Positions 1-49,004 of a DNA stretch of 64,000 nucleotides are shown piece after piece. This DNA comes from Taeniopygia guttata (lineage: Eukaryota > Chordata > Aves > Passeriformes > Estrildidae): the NCBI RefSeq assembly GCF_048771995.1, contig NC_133060.1:2165501-2229500 (forward strand). Direction: 5' to 3'. Numbering within the stretch: the stretch's first letter is position 1; each line of letters starts with the position of its first letter. The position numbers and the translations under genes were made by a program. The notes below the pieces were generated by a model. That model saw only the letters and a program-made list of their open reading frames with translations. It did no database searches and was not told the origin of the DNA.

Positions 1-1737
1 AAATGAGGAAAAATCGGAAAAAAAGTGGGGAAAAAATAGGAGAAAACTGGGACAAAAGTGGGTTAAAAGTGTGGAAATTTGGGAATTCTCATTCCCGGTT
101 TTCCAGGTGTTGCTGTAACTCAGCAGATCCCGGGGGAAAGGGGAAAAATGGGGAAAAATGGGAAAAATATGAGAGGAAATGGGAGAAATATGGGAGAAGT
201 ACGGGAAAAATCGGGATAAAAGTGCAGAAATTGGGGAATTCTCATTCCCGTTGTTCCGGGAAGTGCTGACTCAGCTGATCCCGGGGGAAAGGGGAAAAAA
301 TGGGCAAAAATGAGGTGGAAAAACAGGAAAAAATGGTTAAAAAATGGGAGAAAAGTGGAAGAAAACCGGGAAAAAATTGGGATAAGAGTGTGGAAATTTG
401 GGAATTGTCATTCCTGGTTTTTCAGGCAGTGCTGACTCAGCAGATCCCAGGGGGGGAAAGGGGAAACATGGCAGAAAAATTGGGAGAAAAATAGAGGAAA
501 AAATGGGGGAAAAAACCCAGGAAAAAAAGCTAAAAACCGGGAAAAAAGTGGGATAAAAGTGTGGCAATTTGGGAATTCTCATTCCCGGTTTTCCAGGCAT
601 TGCTGACTCAGCAGATCCTGGGGGGAAATGGGAAGAATGGGGAAAAAATGGGAAAAATATGAGAGGAAATGGGAGAAATATGGGAGAAATACGGGAAAAA
701 TTGGGATAAAAGTGCGGAAATTTGGGAATTCTCATTCCTGGTTTTCCAGGCATCGCTGACTCAGCAGATCCCAGAGGGAAAGGGGAAAAAATGAGGAAAA
801 ATCGGAAAAAAGTGGGAAAAAATGGGAGAAAAAGGGGGGAAAATTGGGATAAAAGTGCAGAAATTTGGGAATTCTCATTCCCGTTGTTCCGGGAAGTGCT
901 GACTCAGCTGATCCTGGGGGAAAGGAGAGAAAATGGGGGAAAAATGAGGGAAAAATGGGTAAAAATGGGGGAAAAACCAGAAAAAATGGTTCAAAAATGG
1001 GAGAAAAGTGGAAGAAAACTGGGAAAAAATTGGGATTAGAGTGTGGGAATTTGGGAATTCCCGTTCCCGGTTTTCCAGGTGGTGCTGACTCAGCAGATCC
1101 CGGGGGGGAAAAGGGAAAACATGGGAGAAAAATTGGGAGAAAAATAGAGGAAAAAATGGGGAAAAAAAACCCAGGAAAAAAAGCTAAAAACCGGGAAAAA
1201 AGTGGGATAAAAGTGTGGAAATTTGGGAATTCTCATTCCTGGTTTTCCAGGCATTGCTGACTCAGCAGATCCTGAGGGGAAAGGGGAAAAAAGGGGAAAA
1301 ATGGGAAAAATATGTGAGGAAATGGTAGAAATATGGGAGAAATACGGGAAAAATTGGGATAAAAGTGCGGAAATTTGGGAATTCTCATTCCCGTTGTTCC
1401 TGGAAATGCTGACTCAGCTGATCCAGGGGGAAAGGAGAGAAAATGGGAGAAAAATGAGGGAAAAAGGGGGGGGGGAACAGAAAAAAAAATGGTTAAAAAA
1501 TGGGAGAAAAGTGGAAGAAAACTGGGAAAAAATCGGGATAAGAGTGTGGAAATTTGGGAATTCTTGTTCCTGGTTTCCAGGCAGTGCTGACTCAGCAGAT
1601 CCCAGGGGGGAAAAGGGAAAACATGGGAGAAAAATAGAAAAAAAATAGGGAAAAAAACCAGGAAAGAATGCTAAAAATTGGGAAAAGAGCGGGATAAGAG
1701 TGTGGGAATTTGGGAATTCCCGTTCCCGGTTTTCCAG
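1..1737 (+). repeat. Exon-edge array before the last VPS52 exon
   Basis: About ten tandem units of roughly 150-175 bp in G/A-rich intron sequence. Each holds a polypyrimidine/AG acceptor-like stretch followed by about 22 bp resembling the start of the last VPS52 exon (GCnnTGCTGACTCAGCnGATC). Units lie near 97, 247, 416, 587, 742, 891, 1070, 1242, 1396 and 1573. Two subtypes are visible: one with TTTTCCAGGC before the exon-like part and CAGCAGATC within it, the other with TTGTTCCGGGAAG and CAGCTGATC. The true exon at 1738 forms the downstream end. Open frames here are by-products of a stop-poor repeat. Confidence 0.85.
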
Positions 1738-1884
1738 GCGGCGCTGACCCAGCTGATCCAGGTGTACCACCGCTTCCAGAAGGTTCTGGAGCAGCCGCCC
1801 CTGCGGGCGCTGCCGGCCCGCGCCGACCTCATCAACATCCACCACCTGATGGTGGAGCTCAAAAAGCACAAACCCAACTTCTAA
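1738..1884 (+). CDS. VPS52: VPS52 last coding exon (partial gene)
   Basis: C-terminal 48 codons of VPS52, a subunit of the GARP/EARP tethering complexes (with VPS51, VPS53 and VPS54 or VPS50) that return endosomal vesicles to the trans-Golgi network. The acceptor TTTTCCAG ends at 1737, the frame is phase 0 and the stop is TAA at 1882-1884. The peptide contains YHRFQKVLEQ and ends LINIHHLMVELKKHKPNF, which I recognise as the conserved VPS52 C-terminus. The rest of the gene lies left of the window. Its human neighbours RING1 and B3GALT4 are also neighbours here. Confidence 0.93.
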   Translation, partial: AALTQLIQVYHRFQKVLEQPPLRALPARADLINIHHLMVELKKHKPNF

Positions 1885-3200: not shown

Positions 3201-3204
3201 CGGG

Positions 3205-3210
3205 AATAAA
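3205..3210 (+). terminator. VPS52 poly(A) signal
   Basis: Canonical AATAAA at the end of the 3' UTR array, followed about 20 bp later by a GT-rich stretch (GTGTTGGTTTATTGC) suitable as a downstream element. It is the first non-repetitive sequence after the stop. Confidence 0.75.
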
Positions 3211-3232
3211 ATCCGGAGGCTCCGAGTGTTGG

Positions 3233-3238
3233 TTTATT
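3233..3238 (-). terminator. RING1 poly(A) signal
   Basis: AATAAA on the minus strand (TTTATT on plus) at the end of the RING1 3' UTR. It overlaps the downstream region of the VPS52 poly(A) site, so the convergent genes probably overlap or abut at their 3' ends. Confidence 0.7.
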
Positions 3239-3244
3239 GCTGCT

Positions 3245-4338: not shown

Positions 4339-4440
4339 CTATTTCTGCTCCTTGCTGGGGGCGTAGAAGAGCTCCAGGGGTTTGCTGAGCTTCCAGAACT
4401 TCTCGTTCACCAACTCCAGCGTCAGCGACCCGTTCAGGGG
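4339..4440 (-). CDS. RING1: RING1 coding exon 6
   Basis: Residues 317-349 and the stop TAG (plus-strand CTA at 4339-4341). It starts after acceptor CTTCTCCCCAG and encodes [16 protein letters not shown] and [11 protein letters not shown], the end of the RAWUL domain. Phase 0 with exon 5. Confidence 0.96.
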
Positions 4441-7400
4441 CTGGGGAGAAACGGGGGGTCAGCACCCCAAAATCACCCCAAAAATATCCCAAAAACACCC
4501 CAAAAATATCCCAAAAACCCCCCCAAAACCACCCCAAAATCACCCCAAAAATATCCCAAAATCACCCGCAAAACCCCCCCAGGACCCGTTCAGCGGCTGG
4601 GGAAAACGGGGGGTCAGCACCCCAAAAATATCCCAAAACACCCCAAAATCACCCCAAAAATATCCCAAAATCACCCCAAAATCACCCCAAAAATATCCCA
4701 AAAACCCCCCCAAAACCACCCCAAAATCACCCCAAAACTACCCCAAAAACACCCCAAAAATATCCCAAAAAACACCCCAAAAAACACCCCAAAAATACCC
4801 AAAATCACCGCAAAAATATCCCAAAAATATCCCAAAATCACCCCAAAACCCCCCCAGGACCCGTTCAGCGGCTGGGGAGAAACGGGGTGTCAGCGCCCCA
4901 AAAATATCCCAAAAACACCCCAAAATCACCCCAAAATCACCCCAAAAACCCCACCAGGACCCGTTCAGCGGCTGGGGGAAAACGGGGGTCAGCACCCCAA
5001 AATCACCCCAAAATCACCCCAAAAATATCCCAAAATCCCCCCCAGGACCCGTTCAGCGGCTGGGGAGAAACGGGGGGTCAGCACCCCAAAATCACCCCAA
5101 AATCACCCCAAAAATATCCCAAAAACCCCCCCAGGACCCGTTCAGCGGCTGGGGAGAAACGAGGGGTCAGCACCCCAAAAATATCCCAAAATCACCCCAA
5201 AAATATCCCAAAATCACCCCAAAAATATCCCAAAATCACCCCAAAAATATCCCAAAATCACCCCAAAATCACCCCAAAACCCCACCAGGACCCGTTCAGT
5301 GGCTGGGGGAAAACGGGGGGTCAGCGCCCCAAAAACACCCCAAAATATCCCAAAATCACCCCAAAAACACCCCCAGGACCCGTTCAGCGGCTGGGGAAAA
5401 ACGGGGGTCAGCACCCCAAAAATATCCCAAATATACCCCAAAAAAAATCACAAAATCAGCCTAAAAATCACCCCAAAAATATCCCCAAACCACCCCAAAA
5501 ACACCCAGAATCACCCCCAAAAAAACCCAGGACCCATTTAGAGGCTGGGGGAAATGGGTAGGTCAGTACCCAAAAATATCCCAAAAATATCCCAAAATCA
5601 CCCCAAAATCACCCCAAAAATATCCCAAAACCACCCCAAAAATATCCCCAAAATTACCCCAAAAATATCCCAAAATCACCCCCAAAAATATCCCAAAATC
5701 ACCCCAAAAATATCCCAAAATCACCCCAAAACCACCCCAAAAATATCCCAAAATCACCCCCAAAAATATCCCAAAATCACCCCAAAAATATCCCAAAAAC
5801 ACCCCAAAAATATCCCAAAATCACCCCAAAAATATCCCAAAATCACCCCAAAAACCCCCCCAGGACCCGTTCAGCGGCTGGGAAAAACGGGGGTCAGAAC
5901 CCCAAAAATATCCCAAAATCACCCCAAAATCACCCCAAAATCACCCCAAAAATATCCCAAAATCACCCCAAAAACCTCCCAGGACCCGTTCAGCGGCTGG
6001 GGAGAAACGAGGGGTCAGCGCCCCAAAAATATCCCAAAAACACCCCAAAATCACCCCAAAAATATCCCAAAATCACCCCAAAAATATCCCAAAATCACCC
6101 CAAAAATATCCCAAAATCACCCCAAAAACCCCCCCAGGACCCGTTCAGCGGCTGGGGAGAAACGGGGGGTCAGCACCCCAAAAATATCCCAAAATCACCC
6201 CAAAATCACCCCAAAAACCCCCCCAGGACCCGTTCAGCGACTGGGGAAAAACGGGGGGTCAGCACCCCAAAAACACCCCAAAAATATCCCAAAATCACCC
6301 CAAAATCACCCCCAAATCACCCCAGGATCTGATCAGTGGCTGGGGAAAATGGGGGGTCAGCACCCCAAAAAACACCCCAAAATCACCCCAAAAACCACCC
6401 CAAAATCACCCCAAAAACACCCCAAAATTACCCCAAAATCACCCCAAAACCCCCCCAGGACCCGTTCAGCGGCTGGGGAAAAACGGGGGGTCAGCACCCC
6501 AAAAACACCCCAAAAACACCCCAAAAATATCCCCAAATCACCCCAAAAATATCCCAAAATCACCCCAAAAATGTCCCAAAATCACCCCAAAAATATCCCA
6601 AAATCACTCCAAAAACCCCCCAGGACCCGTTTAGGGGCTGGGGAAAAACAGGGGGTCAGTGCCCCAAAAATATCCCAAAAATATCCCAAAAATATCCCAA
6701 AATCACCCCAAAAATATCCCCAGGACCCGTTCAGCGGCTGGGGAGAAACGGGGATCAGCACCCCAAAAACACCCAAAAATCACCCCAAAAATATCCCAAA
6801 ATCACCCCAAAACCCCCCCAAGACCCGTTCAGGGGCTGGGGAAAACGGGGGGTCAGCACCCCAAAAATATCCCAAAATCACCCCAAAAATATCCCAAAAT
6901 CAGCCTAAAAATCACCCCAAAAATACCCAAGAAACACCCCAAAAACCACCCCAAAAATACCCAAAAACCACCCCCAAAATACCCAAAAACCACCCCGAAA
7001 ACCACCCCCAAAATACCCAAAATCACCCCAAAATCACCCCCAGGACCCATTTAGAGGCTGGGGGAAACGGGTGGGTCAGCACCCAAAAATATCCCAAAAT
7101 CACCCCAAAATCACCCCAAATACTATCCCAAAAATCCCCCCAAAATACCCCAAAAATATCCCCAAAACCACCCCAAAAATACCCCAAAAGCGCCCCAAAA
7201 ATACCCAAAATCCAGCCCTAAATCATCCCAAAAACCACAAAAATACCCGGAAATCCACCCCAAAAATATCCCAAAACCACCCCAAAAATACCCCAAAATC
7301 ATCCCAAAAACCACCCCAAAAATCCCCCAAAAATACACAAAAATCACCCCAAAATTCACCAAATGCCCGCCCCCAGGAACCCCCAAAATTCCCCCCAAAA

Positions 7401-10400
7401 AACCCCAAAATCCCCCCAAAAAAACCCAAAATCCCCCAAAAACCCCAAAATCCCCCCCCAAAAAACCCCCCCAAAATTCCCCAAAAAAAACACCCTAAAA
7501 AATCCCAAAATCTCCCCAAAATTCACACAAAAATCCCCCCCAAAAAAACAAATTTCCCCCAAAACTCCCCAAATTCTCCCAAAACCCCAAAAATCCCCCC
7601 CAAAAACCAAAAAATCTCCCCAAAAAAACCCCAAAATTCCCCCAAAAACCCCAATTTCTCCCCAAAAAAACCCCAAATTCCCCCAAAAATCCCCCCTAAA
7701 AAAAAAAGAATTCCCCCCAAAAAAATCCCAAAAATGCCCCCAAAAATCCCCCAGGAAACCCCAAAATCACCCCAATTTGCTGCCTCACTTCCGGGTTCAC
7801 TTCCGGGTTTTACCGGAAGTTCCGGTGATGACATCACAGGAAGTGGTGTCGGCCATGTTTGTCAGCCATGTTTGTTTGTCGGCCATGTTTTTGTCAGCCA
7901 TGTTTGTCAGCCATGTTTGTTTGTCAGCCATGTTTGTTTGTCGGCCATGTTTGTTGGCCATGTTTGTTTGTTGGCCATGTTTGTATGTCAGCCATGTTTG
8001 TTTGTCAGCCATGTTTGTCAGCCATGTTTGTCGGCCATGTTTGTCAGCCATGTCTGTCAGCCATGTTTGTTTGTCAGCCATGTTTGTTTGTCAGCCATGT
8101 TTGTCAGCCATGTTTGTCGGCCATGTTCTTTGGCCATATTTGTCAGCCATGGTCATCAGCCATGTTTGTCAGCCATGTTTGTTTGTCAGCCATGTTTGTC
8201 AGCCACGTTTGTCAGCCATGTTTGTTTGTCAGCCATGTTTGTCAGCCATGTTTGTCAGCCATGTTTGTCAGCCAGTCAGCCATGTTTGTTTGTCAGCCAT
8301 GTTTGTCAGCCATGTTTCTCAGCCATGTTGTTTGTCAGCCATGTTTGTCAGCCATGTTTGTTGGCCATGTTTATCGGCCATGTTTGTCAGCCATGTTTGT
8401 CAGCCATGTTTGTCAGCCATGTTTGTCGGCCATGTTTGTCAGCCATGTTTGTCAGCCATGGTCATCAGCCATATTTGTCAGCCATGTTTGTCAGCCATGT
8501 TTGTCAGCCATGTTTGTTTGTCAGCCATGTTTGTTTTTCAGCCATGTTCATCAGCCATGTTTGTCGGCCATGTTTGATTGTCAGCCATGTTTGTCGGCCA
8601 TGTTGTTTGTCAGCCATGTTTGTCGGCCATGTTTGTCAGCCATGTTTGTCAGCCATGTTTGTTTGTCAGCCATGTTTGCCAGTCAGCCATGTTTGTCAGC
8701 CATATTTGTCAGCCATGTTTGTTTGTCAGCCATGTTTTTCAGCCCCGTTCCCCATCCCCGTCCCATCCCCGCTCCCGCCCGCCCCGGGCCGTTACCGTGA
8801 AGGCGCCGCCGTTGGCGCCGCTGTAGATGCCGTACTGCTTCTCGCTGACCTCGCCCAGCGCGGGGGCGGGGTCAGCCCCGGGGGGCGGGGCCTCCTCCAG
8901 CGCGATGCGCAGCGCCAGGTACTTGGACAGGTGATCCACCGTGGCGTTCGACGTGGTTTTCACAAACCTGGCGGGGGGAAATCGGGATAAATCCATGGGA
9001 AAACGGGAATTCCAGCGTGGGAGGGGAGTCTGGGAAAAACTGGGGAAAATCTGGGGAAAAATGGGAAAAAATGGGAAAAAAATGGGAAAAATGGGAGTGG
9101 GAGAGGAGAGCCAGCAGGGGTTTGGAGGTGGTTTTCATAAACCTGGGGAGGGGAAAAGCGGGATAAATCCATGGGAAAATGGGAATTCCAGCGTGGGAGG
9201 GGAGTCTGGAAGAAAACTGGGAAAAATCTGGGGAAAAACGGGAAAAAAACGGGAAAAAATGGGAGTGGGAGAGGGGAGCCACCATGGGTTTGGAGGTGGT
9301 TTTCACAAACCTGGGAAGGGGAAAAACGGGGAAAATTTGGGATAAATCCATGGGAAAATGGGAATTCCAGGATGGGAGGGGAGTCTGGAAAAAAACTGGG
9401 AAAAATCTGGGGAAAAACGGGAAAAGAATGGGAGTGGGACAGGTGATCCACCGTGGCGTTCGACGTGGTTTTCACAAACCTGGCGAGGGGAAAAACGGGA
9501 TAAATCCACGGGAAAATGGGAATTCCAGGGTGGGAGGGGGGTCTGGAAAAAACCTGGGAAAAATCTGGGGAAAAAATGGGGAAAAAATGGGAAAAATGGG
9601 AGTGGGAGAGGTGAGCCACCATGGGTTTGGAGGTGGTTTTCACAAACCTGGCGAGGTGAAAAACGGGGAAAATTTGGGATAAATCCATGGGAAAATGGGA
9701 ATTCCAGGATGGGAGGGGAGTCTGGAAAAAAACTGGGGAAAAATGGGAAAAAAATGGGGGGAAAATGGGGAAAAAATGGTAAAAACCACCAAAAATTCAA
9801 GCAGGAACAGGGCTGGGAGTGAGTGAGATTTTAATGAAACTCTGGGGGGAAAAAGGGAAAAATTGGGGTAAATCCACGGGAAAATTGGAATACTGGGATA
9901 GGAGGAGGGGTCTGGAAAAAATCTGGGGAGAAACAGGGAAAAAATGGGAAAAAATGGGAAAAAAATGGGAAAAATGGAGTGGGAGAGGGGAGCCATCATG
10001 GGTTTGGAGGTGGTTTTCACAAACCTGGGGAGGGGAAAAACGGGGAAAATTGGGATAAATCCATGGGAAAATGGGAATTCCAGCGTGGGAGGGGAGTCTG
10101 GGAAAAACCTGGGAAAAATCTGGGGAAAAACAGGAAAAAAATGGGAAAAAATGGGGAAAAAATGGGAGTGGGAGAGGGGAGCCAAAATGGGTTTGGAGGT
10201 GGTTTTCATAAACCTGGGGAGGGGAAAAACAGGGAAAATTGGGATAAATCCACGGGAAAATGGGAATTCCAGGGTGGGAGGGGAGTCTGGAAAAAATCTG
10301 AAAAAAACTCCAGGAAAAACGGGGAAAAATGGGGGGAAAATGGGGAAAAAAATGGGAGTGGGAGAGGGGAGCCACCATGGGTTTGGAGGTGGTTTTCACA

Positions 10401-13400
10401 AACCTGGGGAGGGGAAAATCGGGGAAAATTTGGGATAAATCCACGGGAAAACGGGAATTCCAGCATGGGAGGGGAGTCTGGAAAAATCCTGGGAAAAATC
10501 TGGGGAAAAACGGGAAAAAAATGGGGGGAAATGGGGAAAAAAATGGGAAAAACCACCAAAAATTCCAGCAGGAAAGGGGGTGGGAGTGAGTGAGATTTTA
10601 ATGAAACTATGGAGGGGAAAAAAGGGGAATATTGTGATAAATCCCTGGGAAAACGGGAATTCCAGCGTGGGAGGGGGGTCTGGAAAAAATCTGGGAAAAA
10701 TCTGGGGAAAAATGGGAAAAAAATGGGGGGAAAATGGGGAAAAAATGGGAAAAACCACCAAAAATTCCAGCAGGAACGGAGGTGGGAGTGAGTGAGATTT
10801 TAATGAAACTATGGAGGGGAAAAAAGGGGAATATTGTGATAAATCCATGGGAAAATGGGAATTCCAGCGTGGGAGGGGAGTCTGGAAAAAGCCTGGGGAA
10901 AATGGGAAAAAAATGTGGGGAAAATGGGGAAAAAATGGGAGTGGGAGAGGGGAGCCAGCAGGGGTTTGGAGGTGGTTTTCACAAACCTGGGGAGGGGAAA
11001 AACAGGGAAAATTTGGGATAAATCCATGGGAAAACGGGAATTCCAGCGTGGGAGGGGAGTCTGGAAAAAACCTGGGAAAAATCTGGGGAAAAACGGGAAA
11101 AAAGTGGGGGGAAAATGGGGAAAAAATGGGAAAAGTCACCAAAAATTCCAGCAGGAATGGGGCTGGAAGTAAGTGAGATTTTAATGAAACTAGGGGGGAA
11201 AAAAGGGAAAAAATTGGGATAAATCCACGGGAAAATGGGAATTCCAGGGTGGGAGGGAGGTCTGGAAAAAATCTGGGGAAAAACAGGGAAAAAATGGGGA
11301 AAAATGGAAAAAATGGGAGTGGGAGAGGGGAGCCACCATGGGTTTGGAGGTGGTTTTCACAAACCTGGGGAGGGGAAAAATGGGGAAAATTGGGATAAAT
11401 CCATGGGAAAATGGGAATTCCAGGATGGGAGGGGGGTCTGGAAAAAATCTGGGAAAAAATGGGAAAAAAATGTGGGGAAAATGGGGAAAAAATGGGAGTG
11501 GGAGAGGAGAGCTACCAGGGATTTGGAGGTGGTTTTCACAAACCTGGGGAGGTGAAAAACGGGGAAAATTGGGATAAATCAATGGGAAAATTGGAATTCC
11601 AGCGTGGGAGGGGAGTCTGGAAAAAACCTGGGAAAAACTCCAGGAAAAATGGGGAAAATGGGGGGGAAATGGGGAAAAAAATGGGAAAAACCACCAAAAA
11701 TTCCAGCAGGAACGGGGGTGGGAGTGAGCGAGATTTTAATGAAACTATGGGGGGGAAAAAGGGAAAAATTGGGATAAATCCCCGGGAAAATGGGAATTCC
11801 AGGGTGGGAGGGAGGTCTGGAAAAAATCTGAGAAAAACTCCAGGAAAAACGGGAAAAAACTGGGGGGGAAAATGGGGAAAAAATGGGAGTGGGAGAGGAG
11901 AGCCACCAGGGGTTTGGAGGTGGTTTTCACAAACCTGGGGAGGGGAAAAACAGGGAAAATTTGGGATAAATCCATGGGAAAATGGGAATTCCAGGGTGGG
12001 AGGGAGGTCTGGAAAAAATCTGGGGAAAAACGGGAAAAAAATGGGAAAAATGGGAGTGGGAGAGGGGAGCCAGCAGGGGTTTGGAGGTGGTTTTCACAAA
12101 CCTGGGGAGGGGAAAAACAGGGAAAATTGGGATAAATCCATGGGAAAATGGGAATTCCAGCGTGGGAGGGGAGTCTGGAAAAAATCTGGGGAAAAATGGG
12201 AAAAAAATGGGGGGAAATGGGGAAAAAAATGGGAAAACCCACCAAAAATTCCAGCAGGAACAGGGGTGGGAGTGAGTGAGATTTTAATGAAACTCTGGGG
12301 GGAAAAAGGGAAAAATTGTGATAAATCTATGGGAAAATGGGAATTCCAGGATGGGATGGGGGGTCTGGAAAAAATCTGGGAAAAATCTGGGAAAAAATTG
12401 GGGAAAAATGGGAGTGGGAGAGGAGAGCCACCAGGGATTTGGAGGTGGTTTTCACAAACCTGGGGAGGGGAAAAACGGGGAAAATTGGGATAAATCCACG
12501 GGAAAATGGAAATTCTGGGGTTTGGAAAAAATCTGGGGGAAAATGGGAAAAAATCTGGCAAAAAATGGGGAAAAATCTGGGAAAAAATGGGGAAAATGAG
12601 GAAAAATGGGTGTGGGAGAGGGGAGGGACCATGGTGTTGGAGATGGTTTTCACAAACCTGGGAAGGTGAAAATCATGGAAAACTTGGGATAAATCCATTG
12701 GAAAGTGGGAATTCTGGAGTTTGAAAAACTCCAGGGGAAAAAAATCTGGGGAAAAACAGGAAAAAATGGGGGAAAAATGGGAAAAGACGCCCAAAATTCC
12801 AGCAGGAATGGGGCTGGGAGTGAGTGAGAGTTTTAGGGAACTGTGGGAAAAAAAACAGGGAAAATTGGGGTAAATCCATGGGAAAATGGGAATTCTGGGG
12901 TCTGGAAAAAATCTGGGGGAAAATCCGTGGAAAAAATCCGGGACAAAAATGGGAAAAAATGGGGAAAATGAGGAAAAATGGGAGTGGGAGAGGAGAGCCA
13001 CTGTGGTGATTTGAACTTACCTGGGGGAAAAAATCAGGGAAAAATTTGGATAAATCCAGGGAAAAATGGGAATTTGGGGCTGGGAGGGGCAGCTGGAAAA
13101 ATCTGGGGGAAATGGGGAAAAAACAGGGAAGAAATGGGGGAAAATGGGAAAAAATGAGGGGGAAATGGGGAAAAAAGGGAAAAATGGGGAAAATGGGAAA
13201 AACAGAGGAAAATGGAGAAAAAATGGGGGAAAAAGGGGTAAACTGGAAAATGGGGGGAAAATTGGGGGGAAAATTGGGGGGAAAATGGGAAAAAATGGGG
13301 AAAAGTGGGGGGGAGGGAATGGGGAAAAAATGGGGGAAAATGGGGGGAAATGGGGAAAAATGGGGGAAATAGAGAAAAAAATGGGGAAAATGGGAGAAAT

Positions 13401-16400
13401 GGGTGGAAATGGGGAAAACAAGGGGGGAAATGAGAAAAAAGAGGGTAAAAACAAGGGGAAATGGGGAAAAAATGGGAAAAATGGGAAAAAATGGGAAAAG
13501 CTGAGGAAAAAATGGGGGAAAATGGGGATAAATGGGGAAAATGGGGAAAATGGGAGAAATTTGGGGAAAAATGGGGAAAATGGGGATAAATGGGGAAAAT
13601 AGGGGGAAAATGGGAAAAAATAGGGGAAAATTGGGAAAAATGGGGGGAAATAGTGAAAAAATAGGGAAAATGGGAGAAACAGGGAAAAAATGGGGAAAAT
13701 GGGAGAAATGGGAGGAAATAGGGAAAACAAGGAGGGAAATGAGAAAAAAGGGGGTAAAAACAAGGGGAAATGGGGAAAAAATGGGAAAAATGGGAAAAAA
13801 TGGGAAAAGCTGAGGAAAAAATGGGGGGAAAATGGGTAAAAAACGGGGGGAAATGGGGGAAAATGGGGATAAATGGGGAAAATGGGAAAAAATGGGGGGA
13901 AATGAGGAAAAACCAGGGAAAATGGGAGTGGAGTGAGCGCCGGAAGTGGAAAAATCTGGGAGGAATCCCTGGAAAATGCAGAGAGGAGGAAGAGGAGGGA
14001 GAGGGGAGGAAGGGCAGGGAGGGAGAGGAACAGGAAGAGGAAGAGGGAATGGAACAGGAAGTGGAACAGGAAGCGGAAGATGAAGATAAGGATGAAGATG
14101 AAGATGAGGATGATGATGATGATGAAGGCCACTCACCGTGTCTGGCAGCACTCGCCCTTCTCCACCAGCAGCGGGTGTGGCCGGGAGGGGAACAGGAAGT
14201 GGAAATGGAGCAGGAAGTGGAACAGGAAGTGGAACAGGAAGTGGAACAGGAAGATGAAGATGGGGATGAAGATGACAATGAAGAGGAAGATGATGAAGAT
14301 GAAGGGCACTCACCGTGTCTGGCAGCACTCGCCCTTCTCCACCAGCAGGGGGTGTGGCCGGAAGGGGAACAGGAAGTGGAAACGGAACAGGAAGTGGAAC
14401 AGGAAGTGGAACAGGAAGATGAACATGACGATGAAGAGGAAGATGATGAAGATGAAGGGCACTCACCATGTCTGGCAGTACTCGCCCTTCTCCACCAGCA
14501 GGGGGCGTGGCCGGAAGGGGAACAGGAAGTGGAAATGGAACAGGAAGTGGGACAGGAAGTGGAACAGGAAGTGGAACAGGAAGTGGAAATGGAACAGGAA
14601 GTGGAACAGGAAGGGGAACAGGAAGTGGAAATGGAACATGAAGACAGGGATGAAGACAGGGATGAAGATGAAGATGAGGATGATGATGATGAAGATGATG
14701 AAGGCCACTCACCGTGTCTGGCAGTACTCGCCCTTCTCCACCAGCAGCGGGCGTGGCCGGGAGGGGAACAGGAAGTGGAAATGGAACAGGAAGTGGAACA
14801 GGAAGTGGAACAGGAAGATGAAGATGGGGATGAAGATGAAGATGATGATGATGAAGGGCACTCACCGTGTCTGGCAGCACTCGCCCTTCTCCACCAGCAG
14901 CGGGTGTGGCCGGAAGGGGGACAGGAAGTGGAAATGGAACAGGAAGTGGAACAGGAAGTGGAAGTGGAACAGGAAGTGGAACAGGAAGTGGAACAGGAAG
15001 TGGAACAGGACAATGAAGATGGGGATGACGATGAAGATGACGATGACGATGATGATGATGAAGGGCACTCACCGTGTCTGACAGTACTCGCCCTTCTCCA
15101 CCAGCAGCGGGTGTGGCCGGAACACCAGCTCGATCTCGCTGCTCCCGGCCTCGGCCTCGGCCTCGGGGCTGCCCCGCCCCCCGGGCCCGGCCCCGCCCCC
15201 GGCCCCGCCCGGCCCCGCCCCCTCGGCGGCGGGCTCGGCCTCGGGGTCGGGCCCGGAGTCGTCGGAGGCGCGGGAGCGTTTCCGGCTGGGCCCCGGCGGC
15301 TCCGGCGCCGCCCCCAGCGCCTCCAGCCCCTCCTCGCCCCCCGAGAACCCCGCGGGGTCCGACTCGGCCGCCAGCTTCCGCACCCGCTGCGCCCTGCGGG
15401 AAATCATGGGGTTTTAGGGGGAAATAATGGGATTTTAGGGGGAAAATAACGGGATTTTAGGGGGAAAGTAATGGGGAAAAATAATGGGATATTAGGGGGA
15501 AATAATGGGGAAAAATAATGGGGTTTTAGGGGGAAAATAATGGGATTTTTGGGGGAAATCATGGGGAAAAATAATGGGATATTAGGGGAAAATAATGGGG
15601 AAAATCATGGGGTTTTAGGGGAAAATAATGGGGAAAATAATGGGGTTTTAGGGGGAAAATAATGGGATATTAGGGGGAAAATAATGGGATATTAGTGGGA
15701 AAATAATGGGGAAAATAATGGGATTGTAGGGGGAAAATCATGGGGGAAAAATGGGATTTTAGGGGGAAAATAATGGGATTTTTGGGGGAAATAATGGGGA
15801 AAAATCATGGGATTTTAGGGGGGAAATAATGGGGAAAATAATGGGGTTTTAGGGGGAAAATAATGGGGAAAAATAATGGGATTTTAGGGGGGAAATAATG
15901 GGGAAAAATGGGGTTGTAGAGAAAAAAACATGATATTTTAGAGAAAAAAATAATGGGGAAAAATAATGGGATTTTAGGGGAAAATAATGGGATTTTAGGG
16001 GGAAATAATGGGGTTTTAGGGGGAAAATAATGGGGAAAAATGGGGTTTTACGGAAAAAAATAATGGGATATTAGGGGGAAAATAATGGGGAAAATAATGG
16101 GATTTTAGGGGAAAAATAATAATGGGATTTTAGGGGGAAAATAATGGGGAAAATAATGGGATTTTAGGGGAAAAATAATAATGGGATTTTAGGGGGAAAA
16201 TAATGGGGAAAATAATGGGATATTAGGGGGAAAATAATGGGATTTTAGGGGGAAAATAATGGGGAAAAAAATGGGATATTAGGGGGAAAATAATGGGGAA
16301 AAATAATGGGATTTTAGGGGGAAATAATGGGGAAAAAATGGGATTTTAGGGGAAAATAATGGGGGAAAATAATGGGGTTTTAGGGGGAAAATAATGGGGG

Positions 16401-38130: not shown

Positions 38131-38149
38131 CGCGGAGCGGAGGGTGAAG

Positions 38150-38962: not shown

Positions 38963-39026
38963 ATGGCGGAGCCGCTGCAGAAGAAGCTCCAGGCGGAGCT
39001 GGAGAAGTACCAGCAGCTCCAGAAAG
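38963..39026 (+). CDS. PFDN6: PFDN6 coding exon 1
   Basis: Residues 1-21 and the first base of E22; donor GTGAGT at 39027. Encodes MAEPLQKKLQAELEKYQQLQ. Confidence 0.96.
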
Positions 39027-42000
39027 GTGAGTGCCAAAAAAGCCCAAAATCACCCCAAAAAATCCTCCTGGGAACCCCAAAATCACCCCAAAAAATCCTC
39101 CTGGGAACACCCAAAATCCTCCCAAAAATCTGCCCGGGAACCCCCAAAATTTCCCCTGGGAACCCCCCAAAATCCCCCCAAAAATCCCCCCTGGGGACCC
39201 CCAAAAATCCCTCCTGGGAATCCCCAAAATCCCCCCAAAAAATCCTCCTGGGAACCCCCAAAATCACCCCAAATATCCTCCTGGGAACCCCCGAAATCCC
39301 CCAAAAAATCTGCCCGGGAACCCTCAAAAATCCCCCCAAAAATACCTCAAAATCCCCAAAAATCCCCCTTGGGAATCCCCAAAAATTCCCCCTGGGAGCC
39401 CCCCAAAATCCCTCCAAAAATCTGCCCGGGAGCCGTCAAAAATCCCCAAAATCCCCCCAAAAATCCCCACTGGAACTCCCCAAAATCCCCCCAAAATCCC
39501 CCCCGGGAAACGCCAAAATCCCCCCTGAGATCCCCCCAAAATGCCCACAAAATATCCGCCCAGGAACCCCAAAAATCCCCCCAAAAATCCAACTGGGAAC
39601 CCCCTGAGATCCCCCAAAATCCCCCAAAAAATCCCCGCAAAAATCCCCCCTGGGAACCCCCCAAAAATCGCCCCAAAAATCTGCCCGGGAACCCTCAAAA
39701 ATCCCCCCAAAAATACCCCAAAATCCCCCCAAAAATACCCCCCGGGAAACCCCAAAAATCCCCTAAAAATCTCCCCAAATCCCCCCCAAAATCCCCCCTA
39801 AAATCCCCACAGGAACTCCCCAAAATCCCCCCAAAAATCCTCCTGGGAACCCCCAAAAAACCCCAAAAATCCCCCAAAAAATCTCCCCAAAAATCCCCCC
39901 TGGGACCCTCCAAAATCCCCCCAAAAATTTCCCCAAACCTCCCCAAAATCCCCCAAAAATCCCCACAGGAACTCCCCCAAATCCCCCTAAAAATCCCCCC
40001 TGGGAAACCCCAAAAATCCCCTAAAAATCTCCCCAAGTCCCCCCCAAAATCCCCCCTTAAATCCCCACAGGAACTCCCCAAAATCCCCCCAAAAATCCAC
40101 CCTGGGAACCCCTCAAAATCCCCCCAAAAATCTGCCCAGGTAGCCTCAAAAATCCCCAAAATTCCCCCAAAAACTCCCCTAGGAACCCCCCAAAATCCCC
40201 CCTGGGAAACCCCAAAAATCCCCCCTGGAAACCCCCCAAAAAACCCCAAAAATCTCCCCAAAAATCCCCCCTGGGACCCCGCAAAATCCCCCCAGGGAAC
40301 CCCCCCAAATCCCCCCAAAAAGCCTCCCTGGGGACCCCCAAATTCCTCCAAAAATCCCTCCGAAAATTCCCCCAGGAACCCCCAAAAAAACCCAAAAATC
40401 CCCCCTGGGAAACCCCAAAAATCCCCTAAAAATCTCTCTAAATCCCCCCTAAAATCCCCCCTAAAATCCCCACAGGAAGTCTCCAAAATCCCCCCAAAAA
40501 TCCAACTGGGAACCCCCCAAAATCCCCCCTGAGATCCCCCCAAGATCCCCACAAAAAATCTGCCCAGGAACCCCAAAAATCCCCCCTGGGAGCCCGCAAA
40601 ATCCCCCCTGGGTACCCCCAAATATCTTCCTGGGAACCCCAAAAATCCCCCCTGGGAAACCCCAAAAATCCCCTAAATGCCCCCAAAAATCCCCCTGGGA
40701 ACCCTCAAAAATCCTCCTGGGAACCCCCCAAAATCCCCCCAAAAATCCCCCCTGGGACCCGCAAAAATCCCTCCTGGGAACCCCAAAAATCCCCCCTGGG
40801 AACCCCCCCAAATTCCCCCAGAAAGCCCCCCTAGAACCCCAAAATCCCCCCAGAAATCCCCCCTGGGAACCCCCAAAAATCCCCTAAAAATCTCCCCAAA
40901 TCCCCCCCAAAATCCCCCCAAAAATCCACCTGGGAACCCCCCAAAATCCCTCCAAAATCTGCCCAGGTACCCTCAAAAATCCCCAAAATTCCCCCCAAAA
41001 TTCCCCCTGGGAACCCCCCAAAATCCCCCTGGGAACCCCCAAAAAACCCCCAAAATGCCCCAAAAAATCCCCCCTGGGAACCCCCAAAAATCCCCCCTGG
41101 GAAACCCCAAAAATCCCCCCTGGGAAACCCCAAAAATCCCCCCCAAAATTCCCCCTGGGAACCTCCAAAAATCCCCCAAAATCCCCCCAAAAATCCCCCC
41201 TGGGACCCCCAAAAATTCCCCCCAAAATCCCCCCTGGGGACCCGCAAAAATCTCCCCTGGGGACCCCCAAAAATCCTTCTGGGAACCCCAAAAATCCCCG
41301 CGTGAACCCCCCCCCCCAAAATCCCCAAAAATCCCCCCTGGGAAACCCCAAAAATCCCCCCAAAAAGCCTCCCTAGAACCCCAAAATTCCTCCAAAAATC
41401 CCCCCGGGAACCCCCAAAGAACCCCAAAAATGCCCCAAAAAAATCTCCCCAAAAATCCCCCTGATCCTATTTTTGGGATCCCCTTGAACCCCGATTTTGG
41501 GGTGCCCCATAACCCAAATTTTGGGGTCTCCCTAAACCCCATTTTTGGGGTGCCCCGAACCCCGATTTGTGTCCCCAGAGCTGGGCCGGGCGGTGGCGGC
41601 GCGGCAGAAGTTGGAGACGCAGCTGACAGAGAACAACATCGTGCAGGAGGTGGGAGCCAAAACACCTCAAAAGTGCCCAAAAATACCCCAAAACTGCCCC
41701 AAAAATAACCCCAAAACTGCCCCAAAAATACCCCAAAACTGCCCCAAAAATAACCCCAAAACTGCCCAAAAATACCCTAAAAATAACCTCAAAACTGCCC
41801 CAAAATACCCCCAAAAATCCCCCAAAACTGCCCCAAAAATCCCCCAAAACTGCCCCAAAAATACCCCAAAACTGCCCCAAGCATACCCCAAAAGTGCCCC
41901 AATAAAACCCCCAAAATAACCCCAAAAATACCCTAAAACTGCCCCAAAAATACCCCAAAACTGCCCCAAACATAACCCCAAAAATTCCCTAAAAATAACC

Positions 42001-45000
42001 CCAAAGCTGCCCCAAAAATACCCTAAAAAAAACCCAAAACTGCCCAAAAATAACCCCAAAACTGCCCAAAAAGTAACACCAAAAGTGCCTCAAAAAGTAC
42101 CCCCAAAACTGCCCAAAAATAACCCCAAAACTGCCCCAAAAATAACCCCAAACATAACCCCAAAACCAGGACCCCAAAATAGCCCTAAAACAGCCCAACA
42201 CTGCCCCAAAAATACCCTAAAAATAACCCCAACACTGCCCAAAAATACCCAAAAAATCCCCTAAAACTGCCCCAAAAATTTCCAAAAAATACTCCAAGAA
42301 TTTCCAAAAAGTACCCCGAAACTGCTCCAAAAATTCCCCCAAAATACCCTGAAACTGCCCCAAAAATTCCCCAAAACTGCCACAAAAATCCCTCAAAACT
42401 GCCCAAAAAATACCCCAAAACTGCCCCAGAAATTCCCTAAAAATACCCTGAAACTGTCCCCAAAATACACCAAAAATTCCCAAAAAAATACTCCAAGAAT
42501 TTCCAAAAAATCCCCTGAAACTGCTCCAAAAATCCCCCAAAATATACCCCAAAAATTACCCAAAAATCCCTAAAAACTGCCCCAAAAATTCCCTAAAGAT
42601 ACCCTGAAACTGCCCCCAAATTAGACCAAAAATTCCAAAAAATGACCCCAAAATGTCCCAAAAATACCCAAAAGTTCCCAAAAACTCCCCTAAATCTGCC
42701 CCAATTAACCCCCCAAAACTGCCCCAAAAATTCCCCAAAACTGCCCAAAAGTTTCCAAAAAATACCCCAAAGCTGCCCCAAAAATCTCCCCAAAAATCCC
42801 AAAAACTGCCCCAAAAATCCCCCAAACTGCCCCAAAAATCCCCTTTATCCCCCAATTCCTCTTTTTTTCCTAATTCCCCCTTTTACCCTCCAAAATTCCA
42901 TTTTTTTCCCCCAAATTCCCTTTTCCCACCAAATCCCATTTTTCTCCCCAAATTTTCCCCCCAAAAAATCAGTTTTTCCAAAAAAAAATTCCCAATTTTT
43001 CCCAAAACATTCTTTTTCCCCCAAAAAATTCTCATTTTTCACCCTAAAAATCCCATTTTTTACCCCTTTCCTCCCCAAAAATGCCAATTTCCCCCCAAAA
43101 TACTCTTTTTCTCCTCAAAAAAAATCCCCTTTTTTATCCCCTTTTTTCCCAAAAAATCCCAAAAATTTTTCCAAATAAATTCTCTTTTTTCCCCCCCCAA
43201 AATCCCATTTTTTTACCTGCTTTCCCCCCCAAAAATCCCAAATTTTCCCATTTCCCCCCCTTTTTTCCCCAAAAAAATTCTCATTTTTCCCCCAAAAAAA
43301 TTCTTTTATCCCCAAAAAATCCCTTTTTATCCCCTTTTTTTCCCCAAAAATCCCAAAAATTTTTCCCAAAAATTTCTCATTTCCCCCCCCAAAAATCCCA
43401 TTTTTACCCCTTTTTCCCCCAAAAAATCCCAGTTTTGCCCCTTTTTTCCCATTTTCCCCCAAAAAATCCCATTTTTTACCCCTTTCCCCAAAAAAAATCC
43501 CAAAAATTTTTCCCAAAAAATTACCTTTTTTCCTCCCAAAAAAATCCCCTTTTCCCACCAAAAATCCCAATTTTTTACCCCTTTTCTCCCCCCAAAAATG
43601 AGAATTTTTACCCCTTTTTACCCCCCAAAATCCTATTTTTTACCCCTTTTCCCCCCAAAAAAAATCCCAATTTCCCCCTTTTCCCCCTTTTCCCCCAAAA
43701 ATCCCATTTTTTACTCCCCAAAATCCCATTTTCTATTCCCCAAAATCCCATTTTTACCCCTTTTTCCCCAAAAAAATCCCAGTTTTTCCCCTTTTTCCCC
43801 CTTTTTCCCCCCAAAAATCCCAAAAATTTTTCCCAAAAAATTCTTTTTTCCTCCCAAAAAATCCCCTTTTCCCACCAAAAATCCCAATTTTTTACAACTT
43901 TTCTCCCTCAAAAAAAGAGAATTTTTACCCTCAAAAATCCTATTTTTTACCCCTTTTTCTCCCAAAAAATCCCAATTTCTCCCCCATTTTTCCCCCTTTT
44001 TTGCCCCTTTTTTCCCCAAAATCCCATTTCCTATTCTCCAAAATCCCATTTTTTCCCCCCAAAATCCCATTTTCTATTCCCCAAAATCCCATTTTTACCC
44101 CCCAAAAATCCCATTTTTACCCCTTTTTCCCCCAAAAATTCCCAGTTTTTCCCCCTTTTTTTCCCCTTTTCCTGCAAAAAAATCCCATTTCTTACCTATT
44201 TTCCCCAAAAAAACCCCAAAATTTTTCCCAAAAAATTACTTTTTCCCCCCAAAAAAATCCCCTTTTCCCACCAAAAATCCCAATTTTTTACCCCTTTTCT
44301 CCCCCCAAAAATGAGAATTTTTACCCCTTTTTACCCCCAAAATCCTATTTTTTACCCCTTTTCCCCCCAAAAAAAATCCTAATTTTCCCCCCTTTTTCCC
44401 CCTTTTTCCCCCAAAATCCCATTTTCTATCCCCCAAAATCCCATTTTCTATTCCCCAAAATCCTGTTTTTTACTCCCCAAAATCCCATTTTCTATTCCCC
44501 AAAATCCCAGTTTTTACCCCTTTCCCGAAAAAAATCCCAAAAATTTTTCCCAAAAAATTCTGGTTTTTCCTCCCAAAAAAATCGCCTATTCCCCACCAAA
44601 AATTCAATTTTTTTACCCCATTTTCTCCCTGAAAAAATGAGAATTTTTACCCATAAAAATCCTGTTTTTTACCCCTTTTTCCCTCCCAAAAAATCCCAAT
44701 TTCTCCCCCATTTTTCCCCTTTTTTTCCCCCTTTTCCCCCCAAAATCCCATTTTTTATTCCCCAAAATCCCATTTTTACCCCTTTTTCCCCCCAAAAATC
44801 CCAGTTTTTCCCCTTTTTTCCCCTTTTCCCCCCAAAAAATTATCTTTTTTCCTCCCAAAAAAATCCCCTTTTCCCCACCAAAAATTCCAATTTTTTACAT
44901 CTTTTCTCCCCCAAAATCCCTTTTTTTACTCCCCAAAATCCCATTTTTTCCCCCCAAAATCATATTTTTATGTCCCAAAATCCCATTTTTTATTCCCCAA

Positions 45001-48000
45001 AAATCCCATTTTCCATTCCCCAAAATCCCATTTTTTACTCCCCAAATTCCCATTTTCCCCCCAAATTCCCATTTTCCCCCCCAAATTCCCATTTTCCTCC
45101 CCAAAATCCCATTTTCTACTCCCCAAAATCCCATTTTCTATACCCCAAATTCCCATTTTTTACTCCCCAAAATCCCATTTTTTTCACCCCAAATTCCCAT
45201 TTCTATTCCCCAAATTCCCATTTTTCCCCCCAAAATCTCATTTTTTTCCCCCCAAATTCCCATTTTTTTCCCCTCAAAATCCCATTTTCCCTTCCCCAAA
45301 TTCCCATTTCCCCCCCCAATCCCATTTTTCCCAATTTTTGGCTTTTTCTCCCCAAAAGGAGCTGCAGCTGCTGGACGAGTCCAACTGCATCTTCCGGCTG
45401 CTGGGGCCGGTGCTGCTGCGGCAGGAGCTGCGCCAGGCGCGGGAGCACGTGGGGAAACGGCTGCAGTACATCGGGGGCGAGCTGTGAGTTTGGGGTGAAA
45501 ACACGGGATTTTGGGCAAAATGCAGAAAAAGTGAAAAAATGGGGAAAAACTGAGAAAAAATGAGGAAAAAACCCACAAAAAATTGGGAAAAATAGGGGCA
45601 AAAAGGGGGGAAATGGAGGGGAAACGGCTGCAGTACATCGGGGGCGAGCTGTGAGTTTGGGGTGAAAAACCGGGATTTTGGGCAAAATGCAGAAAAAGTG
45701 AAAAAATGGGGAAAAAATGGGGGAAAATGGGGAAAAAATGGGGGAAAACGGGGAAAAAATGGGGCAAAATGGGGGGAAATTGAGGGGAAGCGGCTGCAGT
45801 ACATCGGGGGGGAGCTGTGAGTTTGGGGTGAAAAACCGGGATTTTGGGCAAAATGCAGAAAAAGTGAAAAAATGGGGGAAAAGGGGGAAAAAACCACAAA
45901 AAATTGGCAAAAAATGGGAAAAATAGGGGCAAAAAGGGGGGAAATGGAGGGGAAACGGCTGCAGTGCATCGGGGGCGAGCTGTGAGTTTGGGGTGAAAAA
46001 CCGGGATTTTGGGCAAAATGCAGAAAAAGTGAAAAAATGGGGAAAAAAGGGGGAAAACGGGGAAAAACGGGGAAAAAAAACAGGAAAAATTGGCAAAAAA
46101 ATGGGAAAAATGGGGGGAAATTGAGGGGAAGCGGCTGCAGTACATCGGGGGGAGCTGTGAGTTTGGGGTGAAAAACCGGGATTTTGGGCAAAATGGGGAA
46201 AAGTGAAAAAATGGGGAAAAACTGAGAAAAAATGGGGAAAAAAACACAAAAAATGAGCAAAAAATGGGAAAAATAGGGGCAAAAAGGGGGGAAATGGAGG
46301 GGAAACAGCTGCAGTACATCGGGGGCGAGCTGTGAGTTTGGGGGGAAAAAACAGGATTTTGGGCAAAAATGGGAAAAAGTGAAAAAACAGGGAAAAACTG
46401 AGAAAAAATGGGGAAAAAATGGGGGAAAATTGGGAAAAAACGGGGGGAAAATGGGGGGAAATGGGGGGAGATGGAGGGAAACAGCTGGAGTGCATCAGAA
46501 GGGAGATGTGGGTTTGGGGTGAAAAACCGGGATTTTGGGCAAAAACGGGGAAATGGGGAAAAATGGGGGGAAAAGGGAAAAAAACGGGGAAAAAATGGGG
46601 GAAAACGGGGAAAAAATGGGGAATAAATGGGGGGAAATGGAGGGGAAACGGCTGCAGTACATCGGGGGCGAGCTGTGAGTTTGGGGTGAAAACACGGGAT
46701 TTTGGGCAAAATGCAGAAAAAGTGAAAAAATGGGGAAAAAAAGGGGAAAAAATGGGGGAAAATGGGGGGAAAATTGGGAAAAAAATGGGGGAAATGGGGG
46801 GAAATGGAGGGGAAATGGCTGCAGTGCATCAGAAGGGAGATGTGGGTTTGGGGTGAAAACACGGGATTTTGGGCAAAATGCAGAAAAAGTGAAAAAATGG
46901 GGGGAAAATGGGGAAAAACGGGGAAAAAAACCCAGGAAAAATTGGCAAGAAAATGGGAAAAGTGGGGAGAAATGGAGGAAAAAAGGGGAAAATGGCTGGA
47001 GTACATTGGGGGGAAATGTGGGTTTGGGGGGAAAAATGGGGATTTTGGGCAAAATGGGGAAAATTTGTGGGAAAATGGGGAAAACCCCCATATTCCCCCC
47101 AAAATCCCCATTTTCCCCCCAAAATCCCCATTTTTTCTCCAAAAATTCCCTTTTTTCCCCCATAATTCAATTTTTTTTCCCAAAATCCCATTTTTTCCCA
47201 TGCAAAATTCCCATTTTCCCCAAAAAATCCCCATTTTTCCCCCCTAAAATCAATATTTTCCCTCAAAATTCCCCTTTTTTTCCCGTCCAAAATTCCCTTT
47301 TTCCCCCAAAATTCAAAATATTTTCCCCCCAAAAAATCCCCATTTTTCCCAAAAAAATTCCCCATTTTCCCCCCCAAATCCCCATTTTTCCACCCCAGAA
47401 ATCCCATTTCCCTCCGAAAATCCCCATTTCCCCTCCAAAATCTCCATTTTCCCCAAAAAAATCCCCATTTTCCCCCCAAAATTCCCATTTTTCCCCAAAA
47501 ATTCAAAATTTCCCCCCAAATCCCCATTTTTCCTGCCCAAAATCCCCATTTTCCCCAAAAATCTCATTTTTTTCCCAAAACTCCCATTTCCCCCCCAAAA
47601 ATCCCCATTTTCCCCCCAAAAAATCAATTTTCACCCCAAAAAATCATTTTCCCCCCCTATAATCAATATTTTCCCCCAAATTCCCATTTTTTCCCTCCCA
47701 AAAATTCGCTTTTTCCCCCATAATTCAAATTTTTTTCCCAAAACCCCCATTTCCCCCCCAAATCCCCATTTTCCCCAAAATCCCCATTTTTCCCCCAAAT
47801 CCCCATTTTCCCCAAAAAAATTCAATTTTTTTTCCCAAAAATCCCAATTTTTCCCCCAAAAAAATCCCCATTTTTCCCCAAAAAATCCCTATTTTCCCAA
47901 AAAAACCCCAATTTTTTTCCCAAAATCCCCATTTTCCCCCCAAAATTCAAAATTTTTCCCCCAAAATCCTCGTTTCCCTCCCAAATCCCCTTTTTACCCC

Positions 48001-49004
48001 CCAAAATCCCCATTTTCCCCAAAAAAATCAAATTTTTCCCCCCAAAAATCCCCATTTTTCCCCCATAAAACCAATCTTTTCCCTCAAAATTCCCCTTTTC
48101 CCCACCCAAAATTCCCCTTTTCCCCCCCAAAACTCAGAATTATTTTCCGAAATTCCCCTTTTTGCCCCAAATCCCCATTTTACCCCAAAAAAATTCCATT
48201 TTCCCTCCAGAAATCCCTGTTTTTTCCCTAAATTCAATATTTTCTCCCTAAATTCCAATTTTTCCCCCCCAAAATTCCTGTTTTCCCCCCAAAATTTAAA
48301 ATTTTTTCCCAAAACTCCCATTTCCCCCCAAAATCCCCATTTTCCCCAAAAAATTCAAATTTTTTTCCCAAAATCCCCATTTTCCCCAAAAATCCCCATT
48401 TTCCCCCCAAATCCCCATTTTTCCCCCCCAAAATCCCCATTTTCTCCAAAAAAATCAAATTTTTTTCCCAAAACTCCCCTTTTCCCCCCAAAAATCCCCA
48501 TTTTTCCACAAAATCCCCATTTTCCCCCTAAAATTCCAAATTTTCCTCCCCAGATCCTCATTTTCCCTTCCAAAATTCACATTTTCCCCGCAAAATTCCA
48601 TTTTTTCCCCCAAAATCCTCGTTTCCCCCCCAAATCCCCATTTCCCCCCCCAAAATCCCCATTTTCCCAAAAAAATCAAAATTTTCCCCAAAAAAATCAA
48701 ATTTTTCCCCAAAAAAATCAAATTTTTTCCCCAAAAATCCCCATTTTCCCCAAAAAATCCCCATTTTTCCCCCATAAACCCAATCTTTTCCCTCAAAATT
48801 CCCCTTTTTCCCGCCCAAAATTCCCCTTTTCCCCCCCTGAACTCACAATTATTTCCCGTCATTCCCTTTTTGCCCAAAATCTCTGTTTTTTGCCCCATTT
48901 TCAGGAAGCGCTACGAGCAGCAGATGCAGGAGCTGGAGCGGCGCTCGGAGCAGCAGCGGGAGCTGCTGGGGCGGCTCCAGCAGGAGCTGCAGGCCCGGCC
49001 CTGA
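38963..49004 (+). CDS. PFDN6: PFDN6, prefoldin subunit 6, complete coding region
   Basis: Beta-type subunit of the hexameric prefoldin chaperone that delivers nascent actin and tubulin to the CCT/TRiC chaperonin in the cytosol. Coding exons: 38963-39026, 41579-41649, 45359-45483 and 48905-49004; 360 nt, 119 residues plus TGA (human 129). All introns are GT-AG with matching phases. The protein has the family layout: N-terminal coiled coil (EPLQKKLQAELEKYQQLQK), the hairpin region with RQKLETQLTENNIVQEEL and FRLLGPVLLRQEL, and a C-terminal coiled coil (KRYEQQMQELERRSEQQREL). The Kozak context CCCCCCATGGCGG supports the start. The exons are normal while all introns are arrays. Confidence 0.96.
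39027..41470. repeat. PFDN6 intron 1 array
   Basis: About 2.4 kb of 25-35 bp units (CCCCAAAATCCCCCCTGGGAA) directly after the donor. No exon copy is visible. Base content is C/A-rich, so both strands show long spurious open frames. Confidence 0.85.
41579..41649 (+). CDS. PFDN6: PFDN6 coding exon 2
   Basis: Residues 22-45; acceptor GTGTCCCCAG, donor GTGGGA. Encodes LGRAVAARQKLETQLTENNI and VQE. Confidence 0.96.
41650..42845. repeat. PFDN6 intron 2 array, CCCCAAAACTGCCCCAAAAATA
   Basis: Starts at the donor. Units of about 22 bp (AACTGCCCCAAAAATACC), about 50 copies; no exon copy. Confidence 0.85.
42846..45358. repeat. PFDN6 intron 2 array, CCCCAAAATCCCATTTTT
   Basis: Pyrimidine- and A-rich units of 18-25 bp with weak higher-order periods of several hundred bp (AAAAAATCCCAAAAATTTTTCC blocks recur), running into the exon 3 acceptor TTTTCTCCCCAAAAG. 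Confidence 0.8.
45359..45483 (+). CDS. PFDN6: PFDN6 coding exon 3
   Basis: Residues 46-86 plus two bases of L87; acceptor CCCCAAAAG (weak pyrimidine context near AG), donor GTGAGT. Encodes ELQLLDESNCIFRLLGPVLL and AREHVGKRLQYIGGE. Confidence 0.95.
45484..47075 (+). repeat. Exon-edge array: PFDN6 exon 3 donor
   Basis: Nine units of 160-180 bp carry about 35 bases of the end of exon 3 with its GTGAGT donor (GKRLQYIGGEL). Copies are near 45622, 45785, 45950, 46125, 46300, 46475, 46645, 46815 and 46990. Most are near-identical; 46475, 46815 and 46990 are diverged (GTGGGT instead of GTGAGT). Flanking text GTTTGGGGTGAAAAACCGGG is copied too. Confidence 0.92.
47076..48890. repeat. PFDN6 intron 3 array, CCCCATTTTCCCCCCAAAATC
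   Basis: About 1.8 kb of 18-25 bp C/T/A-rich units up to the exon 4 acceptor. No exon copies. Confidence 0.85.
48905..49004 (+). CDS. PFDN6: PFDN6 coding exon 4
   Basis: Last base of L87 to residue 119 and TGA (49002-49004); acceptor GCCCCATTTTCAG. Encodes KRYEQQMQELERRSEQQREL and LGRLQQELQARP. The C-terminal tail is about ten residues shorter than in human. Confidence 0.96.

Follow-up and report, generated by a model that had tools for sequence, protein, structure and literature searches.

Tandem arrays straddling exon edges in the RING1-PFDN6 gene cluster of Taeniopygia guttata, a dense case of exon stuttering

The non-coding DNA of a vertebrate gene cluster (RING1, PFDN6 and a VPS52-like gene) in the window, the whole 64,000-nucleotide stretch of Taeniopygia guttata contig NC_133060.1 that was analysed, consists mostly of tandem arrays. 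At nine exon edges the repeat unit spans the boundary between exon and intron, with the complete exon preserved at the end of the array. The cluster is a real, very clear and dense new case of exon stuttering, with possibly new mechanistic clues. We consider it probable that these arrays reflect general tandem duplication and purifying selection, with continued exchange between exon and array at the exons of the RING domain.

As shown in Table 1, exons were placed by translation together with GT/AG sites. The top PDB match of the RING1 product is the paralogue RING2; we take the gene to be RING1 on the basis of diagnostic residues and gene neighbourhood. The last exon at 1738-1884 presumably belongs to VPS52, and its 48 residues gave no match in protein searches. 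The RING1 and PFDN6 exons beside the arrays are themselves unaltered, and the two ORFs splice intact.

Table 1. Genes and tandem arrays in the window. Copies at splice sites (ss) were counted with the joint probe; lengths in nt are the exonic part of the unit.
Feature	Position	Strand	Composition	Basis or remark
RING1 gene	4339..28680	-	6 coding exons c1-c6, complete 349-aa ORF	Translation and GT/AG; PDB/Pfam support
RING1 exons	c1 28603-28680, c2 25037-25197, c3 18255-18470, c4 15073-15393, c5 8796-8967, c6 4339-4440	-		
PFDN6 gene	38963..49004	+	4 exons, complete 119-aa ORF	Translation and GT/AG; PDB/Pfam support
PFDN6 exons	38963-39026, 41579-41649, 45359-45483, 48905-49004	+		
VPS52-like last exon	1738..1884	+		Translation and splice site; gene only partly inside window
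VPS52-like last exon 3'ss array	260..1737	+	10 copies, <=25 nt	Window begins within this intron
RING1 c6 3'ss array	4441..7057	-	18 copies, 14 nt	
RING1 c5 3'ss array	8968..12657	-	14 copies, 43 nt	
RING1 c4 5'ss array	14137..15072	-	5 copies, 50 nt	
RING1 c3 5'ss array	16454..18254	-	10 copies, <=22 nt	
RING1 c3 3'ss array	18471..22170	-	17 copies, 34 nt	
RING1 c2 5'ss array	23498..25036	-	10 copies, 51 nt	
RING1 c2 3'ss array	25198..27453	-	14 copies: 6 proximal with 64 nt, 8 distal with ~39 nt	
PFDN6 exon 3 5'ss array	45484..47018	+	9 copies, 33 nt	
PFDN6 3' flank array	49007..55901	+	44 full or partial matches to 49005-49140	Just past stop codon; no coding sequence
In-frame coding array	36240..37390	-	~54 copies of 7 aa	In B3GALT4-like ORF 35249-37807

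Copies were sought by Smith-Waterman alignment of the 17 intron-facing exon edges, one by one, with the intron next to each, the cut-off being the best score of 100 first-order Markov shuffles plus 1; those spanning the splice site were counted with a joint probe of 20 nt of intron and 30 nt of exon. Tandem copies of the edge were found in the adjacent intron at 9/17 edges. These edges belong to seven exons of all three genes on both strands and lie in seven of the nine introns. The joint probe detected 107 splice-site-spanning copies over the nine edges, 5-18 per edge, and none in the own introns of the other eight edges; PFDN6 introns 1 and 2 contained no edge copies. In RING1, c2 and c3 are flanked by arrays on both sides. 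The c6 copies, with 14 nt of exon, were detectable only with the joint probe. No Smith-Waterman match was obtained at any of the 17 edges in the reverse-complement control. When the eight other introns were searched, eight of the nine positive edges had no match and the c3 3'ss had one. Four of the eight negative edges, all from PFDN6, gave 9, 2, 4 and 11 matches in other introns; these are weak matches in low-complexity sequence that exceed a low cut-off. The preliminary description had reported such arrays at seven exons of these three genes, on both strands and in about 5 to 18 copies, and both statements are borne out by the probe counts and controls.

The exonic part of the unit starts at the splice site and reaches a maximum of 14-64 nt by edge (mean 37 nt), although single copies may be shorter (7 nt of exon in one c6 copy, 12 nt in one c3 5'ss copy). 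The splice site is part of the unit as previously described, but the range of 18-60 exon bases given there needs correction. The genuine exon was seen at one end of the array, again as described; this follows from the boundary-straddling geometry and is not independent evidence. AG or GT was kept in 82/88 copies at eight edges, and also in the 17 c6 copies listed. Constraint on these dinucleotides is not claimed, the copies being related to each other. Conservation was higher in the exonic than in the intronic part of the unit in six of eight arrays (c3 3'ss, 0.98 vs 0.74) and slightly lower in VPS52 and PFDN6; a general statement to this effect was dropped, since the difference could be due to slippage and misalignment in DNA of low complexity.

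Tandem repeats detected by TRF cover 65-99% of each of the nine introns. Edge arrays account for 19,552 of 34,711 intron bases, and of the 15,159 bases outside them 13,912 are TRF-covered, mostly by short-period arrays. The claim that exon-edge arrays fill the introns of the whole cluster needs correction: seven of nine introns contain them, PFDN6 introns 1 and 2 do not, and they make up only part of the intron bases. Intronic arrays with periods of 80-260 bp are concentrated inside the nine edge arrays (13,790/15,085 bases), the remaining 1,295 bases lying in three small places. The copy spacing was 173 +/- 25 bp for 80/88 spacings in eight arrays, with the eight spacings above 260 bp taken as multiples and excluded from the mean; the RING1 c6 array differs, its spacings being 88-333 bp. 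The value of 173 bp is close to the nucleosome-repeat length. We do not build on this likeness because long non-exonic arrays with periods of 141-158 bp are also near that length. G4-type motifs occupy 0-64% of an intron per strand and show no consistent side with respect to transcription, so a strand-linked G-quadruplex cause or a transcription-strand mechanism is not favoured. A 13-bp array at 7847-8744 in RING1 intron 5 (TGTCAGCCATGTT, ~64 copies by TRF) is unlike the adjoining repeats.

In the true frame the RING1 c2 copies differ from the exon by 26 silent and 15 non-silent changes, against 12.7 silent changes expected (p 0.0002). The two alternative forward frames gave ratios of 7:31 and 8:31, with no silent excess. 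Measured against their own consensus the same copies gave 24:16 with 12.0 silent changes expected, so the excess is not merely due to change in the exon lineage after one founding. Without RING1 c2 the ratio was 26:46 with 21.9 silent expected, which is not significant (p 0.15); the pooled excess of 52:61 (34.7 expected, p 0.0002) is carried by RING1 c2, and a silent excess as a general feature of the arrays was rejected. In this test the c2 3'ss copies were divided into 6 proximal and 8 distal ones after the data had been seen, one of nine PFDN6 copies was dropped because of an indel, and 17/18 c6 and 9/10 VPS52 copies were used. Adjoining changes with the same carriers, taken as one event, gave 39:57 in all. 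The reverse-complement frames gave totals of 40:80, 27:87 and 30:76; in two c2 sets silent changes were in excess in a single reverse frame (5:3 and 10:6), the one whose third positions coincide with the true third positions.

The exon peptide was kept in 9/10 copies at the RING1 c2 5'ss and in 16/17 copies at the c3 3'ss, none of them DNA-identical to the exon, and in 0, 4, 0, 0, 1 and 3 copies in the other six arrays tested. At the c2 3'ss the copy nearest to the exon has two silent differences, and four of the next five copies have the silent variants CCT CGG with TCC or TCA in place of the CCG CGC TCG of the exon. Far copies are decayed: they show amino-acid replacements and, within the shared part, one stop; stops are present in 2/14 fragments of this array. 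Identity drops with distance from the exon (rho -0.90, or -0.81 on the 28 nt common to the 14 copies). A general rule that new units are always added at the exon was rejected, with p >=0.29 in the seven other arrays. The c2 3'ss array was founded at least twice, with exonic breakpoints at ~39 and ~64 nt, the eight distal copies with the shorter exon piece representing a separate founding. At the c5 3'ss one of 14 copies is identical to the exon (43/43) and the 13 others match at 32-36 of 43 positions. The identical copy is best read as the result of conversion from the exon; it could be a slowly changed relic instead.

At some exons the silent-site evidence favours a role for conversion or for repeated re-copying, and the frame-specific silent variation points to continued exchange between exon and array. 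Since c2 is the only place where the silent excess reaches significance, we infer ongoing exchange for the RING-domain exons alone. It is possible, though somewhat short of probable, that exon and decoy copies form one recombining family, in which exon edges repeatedly give rise to new units and overwrite older ones by conversion, and the intron archives earlier silent states. If so, the prediction concerns RING1 of related birds: ancestral or sister-species c2 exons should carry silent states of the copies, for example CCT CGG TCC, GCG or GCA, and CTG CGC AGC. In clusters of this kind, part of the evolution of exon edges would then come from exchange with the introns beside them.

A coding array in the same cluster serves as a built-in control for a filter on reading frame. 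The ORF at 35249-37807 on the minus strand, which we take to be B3GALT4, encodes 853 amino acids with a Pfam Galactosyl_T domain, and a 7-aa repeat (consensus GPGVGIG) is present in ~54 in-frame copies between the N-terminus and this domain. In the coding array the DNA spacings of all 646 repeat pairs are multiples of 21, and hence of 3, compared with 24-51% multiples of 3 in the nine introns. The coding array is in frame and the introns are not, which indicates that tandem duplication is general here and that selection decides what stays. The preliminary description had suggested that only duplications leaving one intact splice site are retained, and the multiples-of-3 pattern next door fits that proposal.

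Under the explanation by general duplication and purifying selection, duplication would act throughout the cluster by slippage or template switching, followed by unequal exchange at a unit of ~170 bp, and purifying selection would keep those duplications that leave the coding sequence readable. Four classes would be tolerated: duplications wholly within an intron, those after the stop codon, those in frame within an exon, and those straddling a splice site in which the outermost copy is the whole exon. By exon definition the spliceosome would then pick the one copy backed by a complete exon. At the RING-domain exons the genuine exon may keep exchanging with nearby copies through new foundings and conversion, and the arrays would thereby preserve silent states that the exon once had. 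A parallel is intron gain by tandem genomic duplication, in which a duplication spanning splice-site sequence is tolerated because the message is restored by splicing. There the duplication makes a new intron, whereas here introns appear to lengthen, with one splice site per unit.

Several results weigh against this explanation. The silent excess is confined to RING1 c2 as a significant result, and the distance gradient is significant in one of eight arrays. Long intergenic arrays of similar unit show that a long unit does not require a piece of exon. The exonic part of the unit is shorter than under uniform breakpoints (mean 37 vs 81 nt, p 0.0002 by simulation, with bounds of 14 nt to about the unit or exon length that were our choice), which plain random straddling does not predict. 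Breakpoints may favour the edge, or selection may act against long exon pieces. An alternative that we regard as unlikely is that exon edges are themselves initiation sites, through phasing of chromatin at exons, breaks coupled to transcription, or microhomology that an exon shares with the intron repeat, and that long-unit arrays would begin at these sites instead of at random ones. The near coincidence of the intronic long-period TRF arrays with the nine edge arrays (apart from three small others) and the double founding of one edge, the c2 3'ss, are in its favour, as are the breakpoints closer to the edge than uniform; at some of these, a few bases common to exon and intron repeat were noted by eye. 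On the other hand, eight of 17 edges have no copies despite array-filled introns, and unique exon sequence may merely make long units detectable in low-complexity introns. Short ancestral introns would yield the same pattern without targeting: if they were 100-200 bp long, boundary-seeking is not required, because a unit of ~170 bp would hardly avoid an edge. Straddling at nine edges and two foundings at one of them uphold the earlier view that duplication started across exon-intron boundaries; it may or may not have targeted them. A comparison with random placement of arrays in the present introns (8 observed, 0.13 expected) was discarded as circular, the arrays having been picked for holding exon edges.

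An assembly artefact, in which repeats were inflated or scrambled in difficult GC-rich DNA, is very improbable. Such regions are indeed hard to sequence (PMC6792250), but the copies carry substitutions, relative both to one another and to the exon, that are silent-biased in the true frame at c2, the reading frames across the introns are intact, and the same kind of structure has raw nanopore support in chicken PHF8 (PMC12954441). We give equally little credence to a function of the decoy fragments, for example as alternative splice sites or as coding pieces under their own selection. The retained AG/GT dinucleotides and the peptide kept in 25/27 copies at two edges would agree with function. 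However, each unit contains a single splice site, its exon fragment continues into intron repeats, the peptide is poorly kept in the six other arrays, stop codons interrupt two c2 3'ss fragments, and templating from the exon accounts for the silent variation without function. General duplication with purifying selection remains our preferred reading.

The preliminary description knew no named class for such arrays; the name 'sequence stuttering' or 'exon stuttering' was given to them in chicken dot-chromosome genes by Hron et al. 2026 (PMC12954441), and our literature search on stuttering found no paper beyond it. According to its accessible text, that study reports 236 introns in 115 genes, 190 of these introns being on dot chromosomes, with a unit that combines a lateral part of the exon and the splice donor or acceptor, lies in the adjacent intron and leaves the exon unaltered. 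Exon stuttering as described there is found mainly on avian dot chromosomes, and the intron lengths vary among individuals. The present cluster is alike in its introns rich in tandem repeats, in the composition of the block, in the confinement of copies to the adjacent intron and in the unaltered exon. The exonic part is 20-187 nt (median 36) in Hron et al. and 14-64 nt (mean 37) here, and the copy number is 1-44 (median 4) and 5-18, respectively. In density, seven of nine introns here compare with 190 of 5,572 annotated dot-chromosome introns, the latter by the authors' own stricter screen. As to the mechanism, its authors put forward replication stress involving G4 DNA, and gene conversion in meiosis, as admitted speculation. 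The words 'synonymous' and 'nucleosome' are absent from the main text of Hron et al. The silent bias at c2, the double founding, the 173-bp spacing, the coding array and the 3'-flank array are not described in its accessible text and are possibly new. Beauclair et al. 2019 (PMC6792250) described GC-rich 'missing' avian genes with tandem-repeat introns; the introns of tandem motifs with G4-type runs are alike, but exon edges are not mentioned as part of the unit in the accessible text of that paper.

At this dense locus two exons have arrays on either side, the arrays share a unit length, and a coding control is built in. It is also a natural splicing experiment, in which up to 18 similar splice sites are present and one is genuine.

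Outside the introns, the PFDN6 3' flank continues as ~7 kb of array with a period of 141-154 bp (49029-55901), which covers the region of the AATAAA-type signal of PFDN6. The intergenic array at 32703-35254 has a TRF period of 158 bp and 16 copies, and no exon piece was found in it, so long units can arise without one. The lowest-GC kilobase of the window, 30001-31000, has 25% GC and TAAC/TAAA-type short repeats, the other kilobases ranging from 36 to 73%. From 56000 onward there is little tandem repeat (6% by TRF). An olfactory-receptor-like ORF at 58076-58699 on the plus strand matches Pfam 7tm_4 profile positions 86-277 of 280, its N-terminal part being missing in this frame.
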